A DNA stretch of 40,236 bases, from assembly GCA_024276275.1 (NCBI GenBank), contig JAJRXM010000035.1, positions 1 to 40,236 of the forward strand. The letters are read 5' to 3'. Within the stretch, counting starts at the first letter, position 1. Each line of letters starts with the position of its first letter. Below the pieces are notes generated by a model. The model saw only the letters and a list, made by a program, of their open reading frames with translations, made no database searches and was not told where the DNA came from. Of this stretch, positions 10,795 through 38,079 are shown one piece after another. The DNA comes from Candidatus Zixiibacteriota bacterium (GTDB lineage Bacteria > Zixibacteria > MSB-5A5 > GN15 > FEB-12). Made by a program: the position numbers and the translations under genes.

Positions 10795-10998
10795 CTATTT
10801 AACGACTCTTACATTGATTCGTTTAATGATTTCAAAAGTATATTCAAGATGCATCCCAATTAAGAAAGTTATAGACACCCAGAGCAAAATAAGGGAAAAG
10901 CTATTTAAAATCTGATCAAACCTTATATGGATATATAAACCTGTCATAACTATCATAATCAGCGTGAAAACGTTTAAAACCTGAGTCGTTTTCTCCAT
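10795..10998 (-). CDS. Small two-helix membrane protein, unknown function
   Basis: From the ATG at 10998 (AAAGGA about 8 bases upstream) the product is 67 residues, starting MEKTTQVLNVFTLIMIVMTG. It has two hydrophobic segments (about residues 8-25 and 32-50), a charged turn between them (RFDQ) and a basic tail (IIKRINVRVVK). A longer frame upstream to 11073 lacks a better start signal. No family is recognised. It lies alone between the TPR operon and the TonB-repeat gene. Confidence 0.55.
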   Translation of the reverse strand: MEKTTQVLNVFTLIMIVMTGLYIHIRFDQILNSFSLILLWVSITFLIGMHLEYTFEIIKRINVRVVK

Positions 10999-11285
10999 GT
11001 TTCCCGTCCTTTCTTTTATACAGACCAGAATCGGATATCTTCCAATTCTTTTAATACTACATAAAGTATGCACAACTATTGTGCCGAAACATGATAGAGA
11101 ACTCTCGTTTTCAGAGGTATCTTGTTAATAGACAGAGGATTGAACCATTAAATAATACTTATCAGATGATTATTGCCTTTTCGCAATCGCAGAACTTGCG
11201 TCACTCGCTCTTCCGAACATGCAACCCGAGACAGCTGTATCTTATTGTTATATTTATGTTTACGAACATAAAGAGGTCAATTATC

Positions 11286-12389
11286 TTAATTCATCCAAAG
11301 ATACGAAATTCGTACATCTGTTTCGTTATAAGGCTCTACTCGGAGATATCCTTGAAAATCTACAAGATTGTCATTTTGGTCGATGGCAGGGAAAAACTTC
11401 AGCTTCGTTACTAACTTCCGTATTGAATTTGATAATTTCTTGTTTGAAGTACCGACTCTCATCACAGAAGCATGTCCGGAAGTGTCAATATGAATATATA
11501 CATTTATAGCTTCCATGAAGAACGAGTCGAACAATTGACGACCGTACCGATTAGACGGTACTCTTTTGGGGATCGGCTCAGATAACAGTTTTGATTTTTT
11601 ATTAATTATCTTAATTCGGTATTTATGCATTAGGTTAGATGAGTCGTTCACACCAGCATCATAAGGGGCAACAGGATAGCTTAACTGTGGGAAAAATGAT
11701 ACCATTAGATAAATATCTGCAGCTATTTCTTTACCCTTAATTTTAGGCTGCTTAATATCGCTATATAGAATAGCAGATTCGATTTGAGTTAAGAATTGGT
11801 CATTCGATGAAAATTCGTTCTGAATATTCGTAACCTTCCCCTCGTTCATAGACAACTTTTCTACTATATAGGGATACCGACCCGTTGAATCTGATTGATT
11901 AACTATTGAAAAATATGACGGAAATGTCATTACTTTAGGGAGTTCAACTTTATTCAGTTCACAGGCATATTCAAACAAATCATTATCCAGTACTATTGTA
12001 TCTTGGAAAAGAGGAAAACTGAGTTGAGGTTAATTTACCCTTTTATGTATTACCACATCAATAGGAAGAATCGATTTAATTTTCTTATTGTTTAGTATAG
12101 CCGGTTTAAATGATAATTGTTTTATATATAACTCGACTACGGGTACAATTAAAGAATCCTTTTTATTAACCGCTTTTAGAGATTTGACCTTTCCTTTTTT
12201 ATCTATATTTGCCAAAATTCCGGCAAAAACAACTTCGTTGTAGTGTCTAATTATTTTTTTAACTTTAAAAGGGGGTAATGAGTCAACCGAGGCGGGAGTA
12301 AAACCGTAAAGGGAAACATTTTTGGATTTCACATTCCCGACAAAAATGAATAAAAAGCAAAGAATGACTGTAATAAATATCTTTTTCAT
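11286..12389 (-). pseudogene. Secreted protein of three TonB-C-like domains with an in-frame TAA
   Basis: The stretch 12389-12030 encodes a signal peptide (MKKIFITVILCFLFIFVG) and a TonB-C-like domain. TAA at 12032-12030 (codon 120) interrupts it. The same frame then runs open to 11286. The sequence around the stop, RVN-stop-PQLSFP, matches the end of the second domain, VSFFPQLSYP, so the stop lies inside a repeated motif and not at a natural end. Domains two and three have the pattern SMNEGKVTNIQNEF / IDTSGHASVMRVGTS followed by LKFFPAIDQNDNLVDFQGYL. The repaired product has 367 residues. Function is unknown; the domains suggest periplasmic protein contacts. Separate translation of the second part would need a TTG or a later start. 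Confidence 0.65.
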
Positions 12390-23285: not shown

Positions 23286-24119
23286 TTAGTCTCTTATGTA
23301 AATTTTCTTCTGAGAATAATCAACGGTGATGTTAAACTTTGATAGAAATGATCCACCGATAATTCCCTTAAATTTTGCTCTCGGTGTAGACCTCTTAAAC
23401 TTTTTCAAATCCGATACATAAGTTCTTACATCCTTAGCCTCGACACCCTCGATATTGATAGATTTCAAAATAGCCCGTCGATTTTCCAAAATAGGTACTT
23501 CAAGCTGTGCAGCCAATTCGGGCGTTATGGTTGTATATGATGCACAATAATCAAGCATCATAGGGACAGTCAACTCATTGTTTATAACAACATCTACTAG
23601 AATAAAATGCCGGGATAGTGTAAACGGAATCTCGGTGTATTTTCTTCCTCGTAAAAAATCGGGTTCTTCTTTGGTAAGTTCCAGTAATTTATTAGGATAA
23701 TCAATTGAGACATAAAACTGTTTTAAAATCTGATAACCGATAAGTCCATCAGGGTTTACCCCACTTTTGCTTAATTTTGCCATATCTACAACGGTCGCAT
23801 TTACATTAGTAAGAGTAACATCATCGGTAATTTGAAGTGTTGCAAGTGAGGCTTTTAATGCTCTTGTGGAGCCGTCTATCCCCTGTATATTTCTCTGTCC
23901 CAGAGCTTGCAGGATTTCGATATTATTTTTTACGGCAAATTTATTATCAATGTATATCCTATCGGTACCGGTATCAATACCAAACCGCCCTGTAATTTCA
24001 CCGTCAATGAGAACATCAACCTCGACTATTCCCCTTATCGGGTCAAACCGTACCTGTTTGGCAAACAGAGAAATAACTGTCAGCAACAATATGGTCGAAA
24101 TAAGTATAAGTTTTTTCAT
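23286..24119 (-). CDS. Exported two-domain retropepsin-like aspartyl protease family protein
   Basis: A signal peptide (ending about LFAK) is followed by two similar beta-barrel domains. Domain one has GRFGIDTGTDRIYID with the catalytic-type Asp49-Thr-Gly, and PDGLIGYQILKQFYVSIDY. Domain two has MMLDYCASYTTITPEL, with Asp190 kept but DTG changed to DYC, and FKGIIGGSFLSKFNITVDY. The two halves could make a pseudo-dimer like pepsin. The altered second motif leaves it unclear whether it cuts peptides. It is predicted periplasmic. The gene follows ccmF but is separated by a hairpin. Confidence 0.8.
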   Translation of the reverse strand: MKKLILISTILLLTVISLFAKQVRFDPIRGIVEVDVLIDGEITGRFGIDTGTDRIYIDNKFAVKNNIEILQALGQRNIQGIDGSTRALKASLATLQITDDVTLTNVNATVVDMAKLSKSGVNPDGLIGYQILKQFYVSIDYPNKLLELTKEEPDFLRGRKYTEIPFTLSRHFILVDVVINNELTVPMMLDYCASYTTITPELAAQLEVPILENRRAILKSINIEGVEAKDVRTYVSDLKKFKRSTPRAKFKGIIGGSFLSKFNITVDYSQKKIYIRD

Positions 24120-24177: not shown

Positions 24178-26679
24178 TTACACTAGTTCATCTTTACGAC
24201 GATAGTAAACTAAAATAGCACCGATCATAATCAGCGTAGTACCCAGCCATACAAAATTAATAATCGGTTTTTTGGAGATATCCAGAATTAATCTATCCGG
24301 AGGTCCGGTTGATGTTAATCCCGGGATATTTAAAGCAATAGCACCTTGGTCAGCTAATATCTGATCAATAGAAACAACATATTTATTGTTTTCACCAAAT
24401 GATGCTGGTTTATGTATAGTCTCTGTTTCTTCCCCATGAGACTTCATTGTAATAGATGGAGTAAGTTTTATTATAGAACCGTTTTTGGAAACTTCGATAT
24501 TTGCTACAACAGTCATGGAAGCATGTGAATGATCCTCACTATTGTTATTACCCGCATCCTGAGACATCTCATATTTAGAAAACGTAAATGTATAATCTTC
24601 TACTTCAACAGGTTCATTTTTTTTCAGAACTAAAGCATTCCCCCCACTATTAGACTGCTGTATCTGCTCCGGTGCGAAATAAAGGTCATACAACCAAAAC
24701 TTATCTACATACGGTCTTTTCATGAGACCTTGTAATTTCTCAGAAAAATAGAGTTGAGGGTCGGCATCATACTCTTTACCGTCTTCAATATATGTTAATA
24801 TCAATTTATTCAACGGAAAATCAATATCATTTTCCATCCCTAAATACTTAACTGATAAACCGTATGCATCGGCACTTTCCCCTCGAGGAAGAATTAATTT
24901 CTGATTAGTACTAAAAGCAGATGATGCGAGAATACCTATAATCATAATTCCAAACCCAAGATGAGATATTTGAGCACCGATTGATTTCCAAGAGGAAACA
25001 TTTTTTACTAATGAAAGAGTATTACTGACAATTAACATTACCGCTACAGCAAAAAAGAGCAGATACAAGTAATTATCAACTCCGACATACATTGAAAATG
25101 CAACAGTTAACAAAGCAGCAATAATCGGGAAAAGAAGATCATTGAAGAACTCTTTATTAAACATATACATTGCAAATGATACTAAGATAATAAAAAACAC
25201 CGAGGCAAACATCAGAGTTGAACCGAGTACAAAGTAAAAAAGTCCAAAGCTTACTGCTAAAGAACTGACAGCAACTATACCAAGTTTTGCTTTCCAGTTT
25301 TCGATAGTGCGGTTTTGGAATGCCGTAAACGGTGCGATAGTTAAAAGAAGCGCATATATAATCGCAAACGGTGCCGCAAATGTATTATAAGTTGACAAAT
25401 TAGCAGCACGAGGCTCTTCGGCAAATATATTAGTCAGTATCGGAAGTGATGTCCAGAAAAGAACTATTATTGAGAAAACAAATAGTAGCGACATCCCAAC
25501 AAAGAGAATAAATTCTTTGTTAAATATATTTAATGAAATCGGAGTATTGCTAATCTGGTGTTGTTGTGGAATTAGTATTACGAGGTTGGTAATAACATAC
25601 AGAGTTATCAAAACACCTATATACTGATTGCCGCCTGTAACAAATGTTGTCAGAGCAAAAGCAGCAAAAAGTGAAGTAGCGATAATATAGTTAAGTTTAT
25701 TTTTCACAAAGAACATGAGAGTCATTAAAATATACAGCACTAAAAATAGAACAAGATATTGGTTAATACCCAAATCAACAAAACTATGTACCGAAAAATC
25801 AGCAAGCACACCGCTTCGCGTTAAAAATGTTCCGTAAATAACCAATACAAATATAAATGATGACATAAGTATATTTGATTTCCGTAATGCCCCGGTTCTT
25901 TTTTCAATAATCATTCCGTGTATAAACGCAAGCGATATGAACCAAGGAATAAACGATGAGTTTTCAACCGGGTCCCATGCCCAAAATCCACCCCATCCAA
26001 GAGTAATATAAGCCCAATAGCCGCCTAGGATATTACCGCCGGCAAGCATTAAAGCAGTGATTGCTGCCCACGGAAATGCTTTTTTTACCCATGATGAAAA
26101 ATCATTTAAGAGAAGAGCGGCCATCGCAAAAGAAAATGGAACAGCTGAAAGGGAATAACCTATAAAAATTACAGGAGGATGAACCACCATCCATGGATTT
26201 TGTAATAGCGGATTTAATCCGGCACCGTCCGGTGGAAATCCGTTTAACATAGCAAACGGTGAAAGCTTGACAAGTAAAAATAAGAAAGACAAATTAACTA
26301 CTGAATAAACAACCATTCCGACATTACGATAAATTCCGCCTTTTTTGATAATAATATACCCAAAGTAACAATTCATCATAAGCCATAAAAGATAGGTCCC
26401 TTCCTGCCCACCCCATAGAGCTGAAAGTTTATAAAAGAACGGTAAGGCTCTATCTGAATAGCTGTATACATAAGCGATAACATAAGTTTCTGAAAAGAAA
26501 AGGTAGCAAAGATAAAAAGTTGCCAGCGTGATAACAGCTGTAAATAAATGATAAGATTTTAAAGCGAGATTTTCATATGTCTTATTGCCTTTTGCAATAA
26601 GCAGAAAGAAAACTCCTGCCAATACATTAAAAGCAAATCCGAGATAAATTAATAGATCCCCAGGTACATTTGGTGCCAT
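24178..26679 (-). CDS. ccmF: Cytochrome c haem lyase subunit CcmF
   Basis: The 833-residue polytopic protein has the tryptophan-rich haem-handling motif GWGGFWAWDPVENSSFIPW. It also has the family segments LWGGQEGTYLLW and LQNPWMVVHPPVIFIGYSLS, containing conserved His. A periplasmic domain lies near the C-terminus before the last helix. CcmF takes haem from CcmE and attaches it to CxxCH apocytochromes. It begins two bases after the ccmE stop, in the ccm operon. No CcmH or CcmG is encoded with it. The length is above the usual ~650, owing to a larger periplasmic section. Confidence 0.95.
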   Translation of the reverse strand: MAPNVPGDLLIYLGFAFNVLAGVFFLLIAKGNKTYENLALKSYHLFTAVITLATFYLCYLFFSETYVIAYVYSYSDRALPFFYKLSALWGGQEGTYLLWLMMNCYFGYIIIKKGGIYRNVGMVVYSVVNLSFLFLLVKLSPFAMLNGFPPDGAGLNPLLQNPWMVVHPPVIFIGYSLSAVPFSFAMAALLLNDFSSWVKKAFPWAAITALMLAGGNILGGYWAYITLGWGGFWAWDPVENSSFIPWFISLAFIHGMIIEKRTGALRKSNILMSSFIFVLVIYGTFLTRSGVLADFSVHSFVDLGINQYLVLFLVLYILMTLMFFVKNKLNYIIATSLFAAFALTTFVTGGNQYIGVLITLYVITNLVILIPQQHQISNTPISLNIFNKEFILFVGMSLLFVFSIIVLFWTSLPILTNIFAEEPRAANLSTYNTFAAPFAIIYALLLTIAPFTAFQNRTIENWKAKLGIVAVSSLAVSFGLFYFVLGSTLMFASVFFIILVSFAMYMFNKEFFNDLLFPIIAALLTVAFSMYVGVDNYLYLLFFAVAVMLIVSNTLSLVKNVSSWKSIGAQISHLGFGIMIIGILASSAFSTNQKLILPRGESADAYGLSVKYLGMENDIDFPLNKLILTYIEDGKEYDADPQLYFSEKLQGLMKRPYVDKFWLYDLYFAPEQIQQSNSGGNALVLKKNEPVEVEDYTFTFSKYEMSQDAGNNNSEDHSHASMTVVANIEVSKNGSIIKLTPSITMKSHGEETETIHKPASFGENNKYVVSIDQILADQGAIALNIPGLTSTGPPDRLILDISKKPIINFVWLGTTLIMIGAILVYYRRKDELV

Positions 26680-26681
26680 GG

Positions 26682-27122
26682 TCAGACTCCGGTTTCTCCA
26701 ACGGCTTCGTTGTGTTTTTCCATATCTTGATATTCTTCGCCATCTTCACCTTGATACTTTGAAGGGCACTTCACAAGCATTTGTTCAGCGACAAAATGGT
26801 CTCCCTCGGTTTTTCCTTTCAAAACTACTGAAGTAGCTTGGTCAAAATTACCGGGAACGACACCTTTATAGATAACATTCATCTTAGATGCACCTACCAT
26901 AGATTCTGCTTCTGCATCATAAACTGCGAACTCCAAACGAGAATTAGCAGCATCATAATTCTTTGTAGCAAAATCAATTTTCCCCATTACCTGCACCATC
27001 TTTTGTGATGACTTTGCTTTTTCAATAGAGACATACTGAATAGTAGTATTCAAAAAAGCTGTAGCTCCCCAAATCATAAATAGCAATACAATAACACCAC
27101 CAATAATATATTTTGCTGTCAT
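26682..27122 (-). CDS. ccmE: Haem chaperone CcmE, CxxxY type
   Basis: A single N-terminal anchor (~residues 5-24) precedes an OB-fold periplasmic domain. Family landmarks are VIYKGVVPGNFDQATSVV and the distal haem-binding segment MLVKCPSKYQ. The residue that is His in E. coli (HxxxY) is Cys119 here, with Tyr123 kept: the CxxxY variant known from archaea and Desulfovibrio-type systems. It carries haem covalently from CcmABCD to CcmF. The ATG overlaps the ccmD stop (ATGA). Confidence 0.94.
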   Translation of the reverse strand: MTAKYIIGGVIVLLFMIWGATAFLNTTIQYVSIEKAKSSQKMVQVMGKIDFATKNYDAANSRLEFAVYDAEAESMVGASKMNVIYKGVVPGNFDQATSVVLKGKTEGDHFVAEQMLVKCPSKYQGEDGEEYQDMEKHNEAVGETGV

Positions 27123-27232
27123 TTTATTTTCTCCTCAAGTTTTTTTACTTTTTTATCTGTTCCAAAAATAAAGAAAAACAGTCCGACCCATACGATCAGA
27201 GTAACTGCCATAACTACATAGTTTCCATCCAT
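27119..27232 (-). CDS. ccmD: CcmD, small haem exporter accessory protein
   Basis: This 37-residue protein begins MDGNYVVMAVTLIVWVGLFF and ends in a charged tail rich in Lys and Glu. One helix plus a basic cytoplasmic tail, and the place between ccmC and ccmE, define CcmD, which helps release haem-loaded CcmE from CcmABC. Its ATG overlaps the ccmC stop (TAATG) and its TGA overlaps the ccmE ATG, so all three are translationally coupled. Confidence 0.92.
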   Translation of the reverse strand: MDGNYVVMAVTLIVWVGLFFFIFGTDKKVKKLEEKIK

Positions 27233-27891
27233 TATAAATCCTCCAGCTCCATTTGTTTCCGAAGTAAAAGTTGTACTCTGACTCCGATATTAAATAACCA
27301 AATATATAGTACGGTGAAAAGCGCCAAAGATGAGAAGAAAACTAATGAAATCGCACCTTCAATATTAAACTTCAAATCTGAATTTATAATTGAATCATTA
27401 GGATGCAGCGTCGGTACCATGCGTGGGACTATAAAGATTAAAAAAGGTACCGTAACAAAAGCAAAAATTGAATACACCGCAGATAGTGCAGCTCTTTTTT
27501 CCTCGATATCAATCGCACCTCTTAAGGCAAAATATGCCCCATAAATGAGTAGAAGAATAAAGATAGAAGTCTGTCTCGGGTCCCAGTTCCAATACATACC
27601 CCATGTTACTTTAGCAAACATCGCCCCGGTAACTGTTGCTAAAACACAAAAGATAAAACCGAGTTTAGCGGCAATCATTGCCATATCATCATATTTTAAA
27701 TCTTTTTTCTGTAAATATCTAATAGAATAAAACATCGACATGGCAAATGCAATCACGCAAATCCATGCTTGTGGGATATGATAATAGAAAATTCTGCTTG
27801 ATTCACCTATCTGCTGTTGAGGCGCAGGAAGTGCAAAAGAGAAGTAAATCATAATAGACATAAAGACAAATAAAACTAATTTCCACCACAT
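27232..27891 (-). CDS. ccmC: Haem exporter subunit CcmC
   Basis: The 219-residue protein has six hydrophobic segments and the WWD-type motif WGMYWNWDPRQTSIFILLL. Flanking His residues occur in FYYHIPQAW and near VPTLHPNDS. CcmC presents haem to CcmE. The position between ccmB and ccmD, and the size, distinguish it from CcmF and from CcsA of system II. A 108-base gap precedes it after ccmB. Confidence 0.93.
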   Translation of the reverse strand: MWWKLVLFVFMSIMIYFSFALPAPQQQIGESSRIFYYHIPQAWICVIAFAMSMFYSIRYLQKKDLKYDDMAMIAAKLGFIFCVLATVTGAMFAKVTWGMYWNWDPRQTSIFILLLIYGAYFALRGAIDIEEKRAALSAVYSIFAFVTVPFLIFIVPRMVPTLHPNDSIINSDLKFNIEGAISLVFFSSLALFTVLYIWLFNIGVRVQLLLRKQMELEDL

Positions 27892-27999
27892 CTTTCAATT
27901 TCTCCAAACAATCAATTTCCTTGTAAATCATTATACAACTAAAATTTAAAAAAGCAACAAAATTCGGAAGATTGGGCTTTTTTTCACAAGCTTTTCATT

Positions 28000-28689
28000 T
28001 TACTCACGCCATACAAACTTAAATAACAGGAGTGAAATAGTAGTCATAACAACAACATAGGCGATTAAAAACTGTATTTCTGATGATACCGAGCTGAGAG
28101 AATTATTATCTAAAATTTTCTCGGTTGCCCCGACTAAGACCATTAATAAAACCATAAGAATCGGAAAAGATACGACCGCAAACAATGCACCTTTGACCGA
28201 TGCTTTTGAAATAATTGCCGCTACAAGAGTTGTTGCCGATACCAGCCCGAAAACCCCTAGGGTTAAAATAACCACAAACGGTAGAATATTTTCTGTTGGT
28301 GCATCGGTAAATATAAAAAACATCGGCGTTATAATTGATGTCATAGTTATTAACAGAGTCAGATTAAATAATAGTTTTCCAATATATATAGAATTCGGTT
28401 CTGCCGTTAAATTTAATATAAGTGATGTACCGGTTTCTTCTTCTCTAATAAATGTCTGAGCCAAACCGGACATCGCCGAGAAAAACATAATAATCCAAAA
28501 CAATGCAGATAAAAGTTTAGGGGACAAACCGGACTGCCCTAATGAAAAAGACACAACAGTCAATGTTGTTACTCCGAACATTAGAATAGCATTCAAAGCA
28601 TTTTTCGTGCGAAGCTCCATCCGAAGGTCTTTAAAATAGACCGCAAGAGAACGGCTAAGTAAGCCTGACGATGTCTTTGGCAAGATCAT
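28000..28689 (-). CDS. ccmB: Haem exporter subunit CcmB
   Basis: The 229-residue membrane protein has six helices. Its N-terminus SRSLAVYFKDLRMELRTKNA and the motif EEETGTSLILNLTAEPNSIY (normally '.E...G.LE.L.L.P.....') match CcmB, the permease partner of CcmA. Its ATG lies within the end of ccmA, overlapping by 35 bases. Confidence 0.9.
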   Translation of the reverse strand: MILPKTSSGLLSRSLAVYFKDLRMELRTKNALNAILMFGVTTLTVVSFSLGQSGLSPKLLSALFWIIMFFSAMSGLAQTFIREEETGTSLILNLTAEPNSIYIGKLLFNLTLLITMTSIITPMFFIFTDAPTENILPFVVILTLGVFGLVSATTLVAAIISKASVKGALFAVVSFPILMVLLMVLVGATEKILDNNSLSSVSSEIQFLIAYVVVMTTISLLLFKFVWRE

Positions 28690-29278
28690 ACTCCTCTTTT
28701 TCGTTGGTGGCTATTAAGATAATTGAACTGGAACGATATTCTTCAACTATGTCAAACACAATTTTCTTTCCGTCATCATCCAAATTTGATGTCGGTTCAT
28801 CTAAAAATAAAAACTCGGGCTTTTTAAGAAGTGCTACAGCGTATTTCAGACGTTGTTTCATTCCCGATGAATACCCCATGACATAATCCATGCCTCTCCC
28901 CTCCAGACCGACTTTCTCTAAGAGAGCATTAATCTCTTTACCGGTAACATGGAAACCGGCAACAGTTGAGAAAAAAATAAGATTCTCTTCGGCGGTAAGA
29001 TGGTCATAGAGATTTAAATAGGGAGATACAAATGAGATGTAGCTTCTAAAAATATCATCAGATAAAACTGTTTGATCTTCTATGTATTGTACTACCCCCT
29101 TTGAGGGTGTCAAAAGAGCAAGGATTACTTTTAAGAGAGTCGATTTCCCGGAACCGTTAGAGCCGACAATAGCTATAGAATCGCCTGTAAACAGCTCAAA
29201 ATTGATTTTTGAGAAGACTTTACGTTCCCCAAACCGCTTGCCGACATCTTCGACTTTTAAACTATACATACTATCCAT
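28655..29278 (-). CDS. ccmA: ABC transporter ATPase CcmA of cytochrome c maturation
   Basis: Walker A is GSNGSGKST, the signature YSSGMKQRL, and Walker B FLFLDEPTSNLDD. The open frame extends upstream to 29377, but the first 33 residues do not look like an ABC protein. The ATG at 29278 (or 29269) gives a normal ~205-residue CcmA. It hydrolyses ATP to release holo-CcmE from the CcmCD complex. It overlaps ccmB by 35 bases. Confidence 0.9.
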   Translation of the reverse strand: MDSMYSLKVEDVGKRFGERKVFSKINFELFTGDSIAIVGSNGSGKSTLLKVILALLTPSKGVVQYIEDQTVLSDDIFRSYISFVSPYLNLYDHLTAEENLIFFSTVAGFHVTGKEINALLEKVGLEGRGMDYVMGYSSGMKQRLKYAVALLKKPEFLFLDEPTSNLDDDGKKIVFDIVEEYRSSSIILIATNEKEEYDLAKDIVRLT

Positions 29279-29381
29279 ATCGGTTTTCAACGTACGGATT
29301 GACAGGTAAAATGCAACAAAAAAAAGTCTGAAAGCTAATTTATTTATAAGTCGAGTTGTGTGAAATAGTAATATCAAATAT

Positions 29382-29460: not shown

Positions 29461-30159
29461 TTATTCTTTTATGTTACGGATAATTCTTCGAATCGGAAGT
29501 GACACTCTGGTGCGGAAATCATCGTTGATTTCAATAGTAAATGAAGAATCAAATTCTTTGTCGAGCTTGTCTTTGTGAATTGTAATCATTCCGTCAATAG
29601 ATTCGCCCGCCTTGATTTTTTTAGGCATCTTCACATCAAATGCTTTCCCATCAATATCAACCAATGTTATTTCGTAGTCTTTGTCTGACTTGTTTACTAA
29701 TTGAAATTTAGCTTTTCTTCTCGGCTTTTTAGTATACTGCGAAACATCTAACTTAAACGGTTCAAAACCGACAGGTCCGATAGATTCAGGTTTCGGAAAC
29801 AATTCCGCATCAATTCTCAGATATACTTTTTCGTCAGAGATATTTGTTTCGAGATACGGTTTTTTTGCTACAAAACCGCGAAAAGATTTTGTCGCAAATA
29901 TAATCTCAAGCGATGTTGAGTCGCCCGGTGCCAAAACTGAATCCTGAAGTGGTGCTTTTGTACAGCCGCAGCCCGGGATAATTTTTTCGATAACCAATGT
30001 ATCGGTACCGACTGATTTAATCCAAAAAGTATGACTTACTTTTGCTTTTTGAGGTGCTTTACCAAAATTAAAAGATGATTCGGGTATCTCTATCTGCGGG
30101 GCGGCATACAGAGAAACAGTTAATGATAAACATATAATCAAAAAGATAAATCTTTTCAT
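29461..30159 (-). CDS. Exported DUF1573 domain protein
   Basis: A signal peptide (to about LYAAP) is followed by the typical DUF1573 start: ESSFNFGKAPQKAKVSHTFW, then VIEKIIPGCGCTKAPL. The second half is another beta domain (KKPRRKAKFQLVNKSDKDYE). Proteins of this family are periplasmic or surface beta-sandwich proteins of unknown function, abundant in Bacteroidetes and relatives. It lies 37 bases after lepB and before the ccm operon. Confidence 0.85.
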   Translation of the reverse strand: MKRFIFLIICLSLTVSLYAAPQIEIPESSFNFGKAPQKAKVSHTFWIKSVGTDTLVIEKIIPGCGCTKAPLQDSVLAPGDSTSLEIIFATKSFRGFVAKKPYLETNISDEKVYLRIDAELFPKPESIGPVGFEPFKLDVSQYTKKPRRKAKFQLVNKSDKDYEITLVDIDGKAFDVKMPKKIKAGESIDGMITIHKDKLDKEFDSSFTIEINDDFRTRVSLPIRRIIRNIKE

Positions 30160-36877: not shown

Positions 36878-38079
36878 ATGAAAATACTAGTTATAAATGC
36901 AGGCTCTTCATCTGTAAAATATCAACTTATTGATTCAACCGATGAAGTAGCTCTCGCAAGAGGGGATATTGCCCGTATAGGTATGTCAGCATCGGTGTTG
37001 ACACATAAACCGCATGACCGGGATGAAATAAAAGTAACAGCTGAGATTTTAGATCATATTGTTGCGATTGAATATATCGTTTCTATTTTGATGTCTGAGA
37101 ACCATGGTGTCATTAAAAATGTTTCCGAAATTGATGCTGTCGGACATCGGTTTGTACACGGTGGTGAAAAATTTTCAGGCTCAATGCTCATCACAAAAAA
37201 TTAATGGGTGAGTTTCGAAATCTCATAGAACTCGCACCGCTTCATAATCCCCATAATATCCGTGGTATAAATGCCTGTATGAAAAAACTACCAGATGTAC
37301 CGATGGTGGCTGTTTTCGATACTGCTTTTCATGCGGGAATGCCACCGCATGCATATATTTATGGTCTCCCCTATGTCATGTATAAAAAATACGGTATAAG
37401 ACGATACGGTTTTCATGGAACTTCGCATCATTATGTCTCCGACATCGCAGCGGAAAAAATCGGTAAACCTATTTCTGAATTAAAAATAATTACCGCCCAT
37501 CTCGGCAACGGTGCCTCAATCGCTGCAGTTCAAAATGGAACTTCGGTTGATACTTCTATGGGGTTTACTCCGCTTGAAGGTCTACTCATGGGAACCCGTT
37601 CCGGTGATTTAGACCCTGCTATTATTTTACATATCATGGCTCGTGAAGAATTAACATTACACGAGGCAAACACCCTGCTAAATAAACACTCGGGGTTAGT
37701 TGGAATCTCCGGTCTGTCATCTGACATGCGGGAAGTAATCGATGCCGCCGATACGAATAGCAACGCATCGCTTGCTCTGGACAGTTATTGCTACCGAGTA
37801 AAAAAATATATCGGTGCTTATGCTGCCGCAATGGGTGGAGTTGATGCCTTAGTATTCACCGCAGGTATAGGTGAAAACTCACCGATTGTACGACAAATGA
37901 TTTGTGAAAAATTACAGTTCTTAGGAATTGAAGTCAATGAGACAAAGAACAACGATGCTATCGCTTCTTATGCAGATATTTCTACCGAAAATGCGAGAGT
38001 TAAAACTTTTGTTATACCGACCAACGAAGAACTGGTTATTGCCCGAGATACCAAGCAGATTGTTGAGCAGGAAACCTGA
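36878..38079 (+). pseudogene. ackA: Acetate kinase, frame broken by one base in an A-run
   Basis: The first part, 36878-37204, has NAGSSSVKYQLIDS and [18 protein letters not shown]. The second frame, from 37204, has [74 protein letters not shown] and [10 protein letters not shown]. All acetate kinase landmarks occur once and in order. The frames join if the run of six A at 37195-37200 is seven, giving [20 protein letters not shown] and exactly 400 residues. It makes acetyl phosphate/ATP from acetate. Without the extra base the product is a 108-residue stub. An assembly or sequencing slip is the simplest cause. Confidence 0.9.

Follow-up and report, generated by a model that had tools for sequence, protein, structure and literature searches.

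How cytochrome c maturation (Ccm) systems manage without CcmH, a protein needed in E. coli, is an open question around the variant known as System I* (PMC3601427, PMC9084895; papers given by PMC number are cited here from excerpts of their text). The question is raised by the ccmABCDEF operon of a Candidatus Zixiibacteriota bacterium, which lies at 24178–29278 on the minus strand of the 40,236-nucleotide stretch of DNA analysed here (the window). An earlier note on this DNA, made from the letters alone, had taken the operon for the variant with a cysteine in the heme chaperone CcmE (Cys-CcmE) and no CcmH, and had pointed to an unusually long cytochrome c synthase, CcmF, with an extra domain. 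We find that this domain is mainly a second copy of the periplasmic beta module of CcmF itself, and that the module architecture of CcmF tracks CcmH better than the Cys residue of CcmE does.

With 833 residues, compared to 647 in E. coli CcmF, the protein is indeed long. It is of ordinary size within its phylum, where 65 of 66 other Zixibacteria CcmFs have 711 to 865 residues and the remaining one, of 612 residues, represents one portion of a CcmF split over two open reading frames (ORFs). Lengths were compared using the E. coli heme ligands H173, H303 and H491 as anchors. The spacing between the first two, the periplasmic ligands P-His1 and P-His2, is 130 in the nine one-module CcmFs with both anchors, 131–132 nearly everywhere else and 135 in Halobacterium. 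Following the position of H491 (the second transmembrane ligand, TM-His2), there are 260 residues in the studied CcmF and 267 in its paralogue from the same genome, 145–184 in E. coli and bacterial plasmid CcmFs, and 339–376 in ten Acidobacteriota sequences; among the 66 other Zixibacteria CcmFs the figure is 235–280 in 62, about 352 in three and 83 in one split gene.

This C-terminal part contains beta module 1 (residues 594–670; 24670..24900, minus strand), with a DLY motif that E. coli CcmF has too, and beta module 2 (residues 682–805; 24265..24636, minus strand), its tandem copy. Comparison of the two modules in hhalign gave 95.9% (89.9% in a first run at another setting), while 30 column-shuffled copies reached at most 0.5%, the reversed control 1.3% and CcmE profiles no more than 0.5%. 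The one loop of a set of 11 short CcmFs, which includes that of E. coli, scored 97.2% against module 1 and 96.3% against module 2. As the match between the modules lies far above the shuffled controls, most of the added length of CcmF comes from a tandem copy and not from an unfamiliar domain, and with two modules the protein is not of the single-module E. coli type. An AlphaFold2 (AF2) model of the periplasmic domain (predicted local distance difference test, pLDDT, 91.8) matched Thermus CcmF with Z 11.1. The ResB profile matched 26 of 45 CcmFs with two or three modules and 7 of 39 with one. As far as our searches of excerpted open-access literature show, in which no description of a tandem CcmF module was found, the doubled module is apparently undescribed.

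Modules were then counted across homologues by a fixed rule (i-Evalue under 0.05, model start within 20, starts more than 45 residues apart), using three profiles that were built partly from sequences later counted. In Zixibacteria, including the studied CcmF and its paralogue, two modules were found in 67 proteins and one in a single protein, the CcmF read in two ORFs (L100); the three CcmFs with about 352 residues after TM-His2 (L145–L147) scored as two-module. Among 40 CcmFs from a wider contig scan, 27 have two modules, ten (all Acidobacteriota) have three, two have one and one has none, the counts of one or zero belonging to sequences cut by contig ends (L230, L264 and L199). The E. coli, plasmid and G144-partial CcmFs (G144 being a Bacillota-labelled metagenome-assembled genome, MAG) gave one module in ten and none in Halobacterium, in which the rule found no module and a 284-residue part was left unclassed. 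In the Bacillota-labelled group, 14 CcmFs have two modules, 43 have one and one has none. Total or C-terminal length was rejected as a marker of module number, given that cytoplasmic tails bring some one-module CcmFs to as many as 789 residues; some one-module CcmFs in CcmH-bearing genomes have 188–278 residues after TM-His2. As separate observations, CcmH precedes CcmF in five loci whose one-module CcmFs have a long tail behind the last membrane helix (L344, L346, L354, L355 and L358 in G240, G158, G202, G322 and G353, respectively), and in G215 one ORF (L335 3082–5859) runs from CcmF into an apparent CcmA-like ATP-binding cassette (ABC) ATPase.

The relation to CcmH was surveyed in 299 genomes sampled from the phylum of G144, of which 55 had a strong CcmF match; classing was restricted to the CcmF matches listed for those 55. 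CcmH is present in 0 of 14 genomes with two-module CcmF only, versus 28 of 38 with one-module CcmF only. G144, counted separately, alone among the 55 carries CcmFs of both types, and its CcmH gene lies directly after the one-module copy; G167, in which TM-His2 could not be placed, and G252, with 0 modules, stand outside these 14 + 38 + 1 genomes. The Fisher p value of 8e-7 counts G144 as one-module only (29/39) and treats genomes as independent, which is untrue. The layout of G144 recurs in G150, where CcmH directly follows a CcmF scoring one module.

By comparison, the motif of CcmE is a poor guide. The Cys119-P-S-K-Tyr123 named in the earlier note is present at residues 119–123 (26754..26768, minus strand). 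Among 110 Zixibacteria genomes searched, 95 have CcmE and 102 have CcmF, and CPSKY was found in 87 of the 87 CcmE ORFs read. The wider contig scan was made with the patterns KCPSKY and P[GA]NF, so that in the best 80 of its 546 loci the Cys motif is largely present by construction (CPSKY in 78 plus L200, also CPSKY, and CPTKY in one); a Zixiibacteriota MAG supplied the closest CcmE among these 80 (88% identity). The 41 other Cys-CcmE genomes, that is, the 80 loci minus Zixibacteria and a few unassigned or near ones, contain a CcmH match in four cases, above the cut-off in G144 and G150 and below it in G128 and G145. Furthermore, 22 loci in 21 Bacillota-labelled genomes (14 read by regular expression, eight by eye from printed tails) combine a CPSKY or CPSRY CcmE with a one-module CcmF and a genomic CcmH, and all CcmEs found in the tabulated Bacillota-labelled loci have a Cys motif, which is CPSKY or CPSRY except for one CPDHY. 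A Metabacillus plasmid likewise carries a CPSKY CcmE together with a 660-residue CcmF and CcmH, and about one third of Cys-CcmE bacteria retain CcmH according to PMC3601427. The 22 loci indicate that Cys-CcmE does not predict the loss of CcmH. Assignment of the operon to System I* with no CcmH found therefore stands, while the link from Cys-CcmE to the absence of CcmH does not. CcmF architecture, rather than the Cys/His switch of CcmE, is suggested as the better predictor of CcmH, which would be useful for annotating uncultured lineages. On a Halobacterium noricense plasmid (L274), we also observed a CcmE end with neither CxxxY nor HxxxY (10946–11320) and an annotated CcmD family protein (2144–2263), though archaea are described as lacking ccmD in PMC9084895.

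The source genome (3.39 Mb in 100 contigs, the window being contig C99) gave no match to CcmH (PF03918) at E ≤ 0.001, although a gene may have been missed in an assembly that is 95.4% complete and in 100 contigs; the same search matched 4 of 14 control genomes, the Thermus control included. The absence of CcmG holds for the cluster. Elsewhere, the genome encodes a ResA-like thioredoxin lipoprotein with WCPPCR on contig C85 (DsbE model 40.6 bits, cut-off 123) and a 645-residue DsbD frame on contig C61, with a thioredoxin approximately 3 kb from DsbD. The CXXCH pattern occurs in the DNA at 467 sites, compared to 213 for the reversed pattern, and 8 kb of contig C18 contains neighbouring ORFs with 6, 7, 8, 13 and 11 CXXCH, the last of them cut by the end of the stretch. 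These multiheme ORFs, together with DsbD and the ResA-like protein, provide the machinery with clients and a plausible thiol path. A profile search of the source genome (maximum E 1) found no separate ResB/CcsB gene, its sole match being the CcmF tail below the cut-off, so the system is not of the CcsBA/ResBC type (System II). Cytochrom_C_asm matches were found at three places, namely the studied CcmF, CcmC and a second, two-module CcmF of 749 residues beside ispH (contig C13; L170 8884–11133). We also note on contig C49 a protein that joins a CxxC-less redoxin domain to TPR repeats (L176 1390–2517), with weak ResA and NrfG matches.

The catalytic core of the studied CcmF is well preserved. 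H167, H298, H254 and H573 align with E. coli H173, H303, H261 and H491 (P-His1, P-His2, TM-His1 and TM-His2), positions that are His in 119 to 122 of 123 aligned sequences. The WWD region is complete as well (W222, W229, W233, W235 and D236, invariant in 45 CcmFs). With the four ligands kept and the WWD region intact, CcmF should act as a CcmE-fed synthase. A full AF2 model (pLDDT 86.8) superimposes on Thermus CcmF (6zmq) with Z 34.8 and a root-mean-square deviation (rmsd) of 2.7 over 564/589 residues. The membrane part also has insertions. Residues ~326–375 (25555..25704, minus strand) form an extra membrane stretch that is complete only in genomes of the same genus and modelled by AF2 with low confidence; in relatives outside the genus, CcmF matches stop near 326 and restart at ~360–379. 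In total, about 44 extra residues are limited to the genus and about 50 more are common to near relatives. When these stretches were compared as one-hairpin repeats, the h1–h2 pair was reached by 4 of 500 shuffles and h1–h3 by 82, while the h2–h3 pair (55 shuffles) had overlapping letters and hence gave no test.

On balance, we consider it probable that these are System I* genes of a multiheme-rich Zixibacteria genome, in which the second CcmF module takes part of the role of CcmH in cis. CcmABCD would load heme onto Cys119 of CcmE, and holo-CcmE would pass it to the WWD site of CcmF with the periplasmic H167 and H298; a transmembrane heme on H254/H573 would provide reductant, and CcmF would join heme to CXXCH. 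Module 2 may cover the active site and hold the apocytochrome, like the proposed beta cap in CcsBA, and may thereby occupy or shape the space otherwise used by CcmH. A beta-stranded periplasmic part of CcmF is described in PMC10663686, where such caps are proposed to cover the active site of CcsBA and possibly that of CcmF, and modelled E. coli CcmH moves near the same active site in PMC8975832. Among 118 CcmFs with two or three modules, 14 have a Cys in the periplasmic part but none has a CxxC there, so module 2 cannot replace the thiol chemistry of CcmH, as we had considered, and thiol reduction has to come from elsewhere, most likely from DsbD and the ResA-like lipoprotein. Likewise, a His of module 2 in the pattern F-D-M-x(1,4)-H, found in 71 of 118 such CcmFs versus 4 of 49 one-module CcmFs (and in module 1 of 18 of 118), was examined as a heme ligand and, not being universal, is not claimed as one. 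Because a change in CcmF structure accompanies the absence of CcmH, the CcmH question can be tested on one domain. The bolder view, that two-module CcmF is an autonomous synthase with the duplicated module as apocytochrome holder, functionally intermediate between CcmFH and CcsBA, in Zixibacteria, Calditrichota, Acidobacteriota, Eisenbacteria and some Bacillota-labelled lineages, appears doubtful to us.

Several points weigh against a CcmH-like role of module 2 and feed the alternatives. Excerpts of the literature searched gave no experimental test of the module. Its superposition on the periplasmic region of CcsBA (Z 9.3, rmsd 2.9, 85 residues), which in itself favours such a role, is modest, given that the domain model matched unrelated viral envelope proteins with Z up to 8.4. 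Ten one-module genomes of the survey also have no CcmH match, and a second module is thus not necessary for the absence of CcmH. A tree of the membrane core was built by a quick method and without bootstrap from 131 sequences (selected Zixibacteria and those others whose core was sufficient), leaving out the C-terminal columns. A single branch, with a Shimodaira–Hasegawa-like approximate likelihood ratio test (SH-aLRT) support of 96, sets every two- and three-module CcmF apart, and their side otherwise holds three contig-cut sequences and the very long module-less L368. The tree's own count of changes between one and two-or-more modules is three, with two contig-cut sequences labelled as one inside the clade. 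Because two- and three-module CcmFs form a single clade, the link with CcmH absence may be one historical event. It is accordingly a substantial possibility, if one short of probable, that the second copy marks the lineage or adapts CcmF to large multiheme cytochromes rather than to CcmH absence, and that some Acidobacteriota gained the third copy likewise. Apart from the clade itself, this explanation draws on the further variation in copy number, the extra membrane stretches that also build up in the CcmF family, the multiheme ORFs of the source genome and the suggestion in PMC9012536 that very large apocytochromes of anaerobic methanotrophic (ANME) archaea have special CcmFs. Against it, the position of CcmH beside the one-module copy in G144 and the contrast of 0/14 with 28/38 fit substitution, though descent alone could also produce them.

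The remaining adverse points concern CcmH-like proteins. CcmH matches (E ≤ 0.001) were found in 6 of the 110 Zixibacteria genomes, four of them above the cut-off and all in two families; the ones read, in G105, encode short proteins (122 and 149 residues), and our own profiles found no ccm genes near the six matches in the fetched flanks. In the Calditrichia genomes G128 and G145, the gene directly after a CcmF that scores two modules encodes a zinc-ribbon protein in which two repeats resemble CcmH, matching below the Pfam cut-off. In its own right, this protein (L268 1087–2037 and L267 1171–2100, respectively) has a membrane helix and extra cysteines, is followed by another zinc-ribbon protein and may be a CcmH variant. 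Both sets of matches would suit a divergent or unrelated partner encoded elsewhere that does the job of CcmH in trans, with module 2 unrelated to it, as would the ResA-like lipoprotein and the redoxin-TPR protein with its weak NrfG match in the source genome. However, the Pfam search that caught these divergent forms was empty for the source genome and for 14 of 14 two-module Bacillota-labelled genomes, and a Desulfovibrio-type system without CcmH and CcmG functions in Ccm-less E. coli (PMC3601427), so that we regard a partner in trans as rather unlikely. That the studied CcmF is a specialised NrfE-like synthase and the 749-residue CcmF the general one seems improbable: the genome does have two CcmFs, both two-module, and paralogues with dedicated substrates are known (NrfE, and the ANME CcmF2 proposed in PMC9012536), but CcmF lies in the fetched stretch of CcmE at 63 of 87 Zixibacteria CcmE loci (some stretches stop at a contig end, and ccmF is located away from ccmE in some families), and no nrf gene was recognised by eye, without a family search, near either CcmF (in the ORFs of the window for the first, in 19 kb around the second).

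The gene order ccmABCDEF, with ccmF last, agrees with the earlier note, and all six genes are closely packed on the minus strand. ccmA (28655..29278) encodes the ATPase of the heme-release ABC complex, of 207 residues counted from an inner ATG, the listed ORF beginning with TTG at 29377; its family match is to ABC ATPases only (ABC_tran 5.7e-27), and the ccmA model TIGR01189 stays below its cut-off at 2.5e-31. It overlaps by 35 bases with ccmB (28000..28689; membrane subunit, PF03379 2.7e-13). ccmC (27232..27891) encodes the WWD-family heme handler (PF01578, Cytochrom_C_asm, 1.9e-28; TIGR01191 5.5e-30, below cut-off). The 37-residue ccmD (27119..27232; CcmD_alt family 2.5e-5; TIGR04391 31.8 bits, cut-off 24) overlaps on both sides, as had been noted, sharing one base with ccmC and four with ccmE. 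The gene of the 146-residue heme chaperone CcmE (26682..27122; CcmE family 1.2e-16) is separated by two bases from ccmF (24178..26679; Cytochrom_C_asm 1e-31), for which the best NCBIfam models are NrfE and CcmF, both below their own cut-offs. Neither ccmG nor ccmH occurs in the cluster, and the next ORF downstream of ccmF encodes a retropepsin-like protein (23286–24119, minus strand); directly upstream of ccmA lies a DUF1573/OS_HP2 protein (29461–30159, minus strand). Further along the window, an acetate-kinase-like gene, identified by ORF reading, is split into adjoining ORFs of 108 and 291 residues (36878–37204 and 37204–38079, plus strand).

Compared to known systems, the studied CcmF shares the core fold and the four heme-ligand His with Thermus CcmF and E. 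coli CcmFH. E. coli has a one-module CcmF and a CcmH gene in its operon, unlike the two modules and the lack of a CcmH match here. CcsBA of System II (7s9y; Z 21.5 against the whole CcmF model) offers a parallel in its beta cap over the active site (PMC10663686), and the C-terminal part of CcmF matches ResB weakly; however, a separate ResB match is lacking here and CcmABCDE are present, so heme arrives via CcmE. The CcmABCEF system of Methanosarcina (PMC9084895) also has a Cys-CcmE, and its CcmH-free maturation has been demonstrated by genetics, although ccmD is absent there and CcmF is split in two genes. The closest likeness is to System I* of Desulfovibrio and archaea, with a CPSKY Cys-CcmE (CPSKY occurs in 25 of 36 genomes in PMC3601427), the gene set ccmABCDEF, no CcmH match and a cluster that lacks CcmG. 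It differs from the published descriptions consulted in its Zixibacteria host and two-module CcmF. The absence of CcmH was named in the original definition of System I* and later said not to be characteristic (PMC3601427). The operon is an ordinary member of System I*, a variant known since 2006, here in Zixibacteria.

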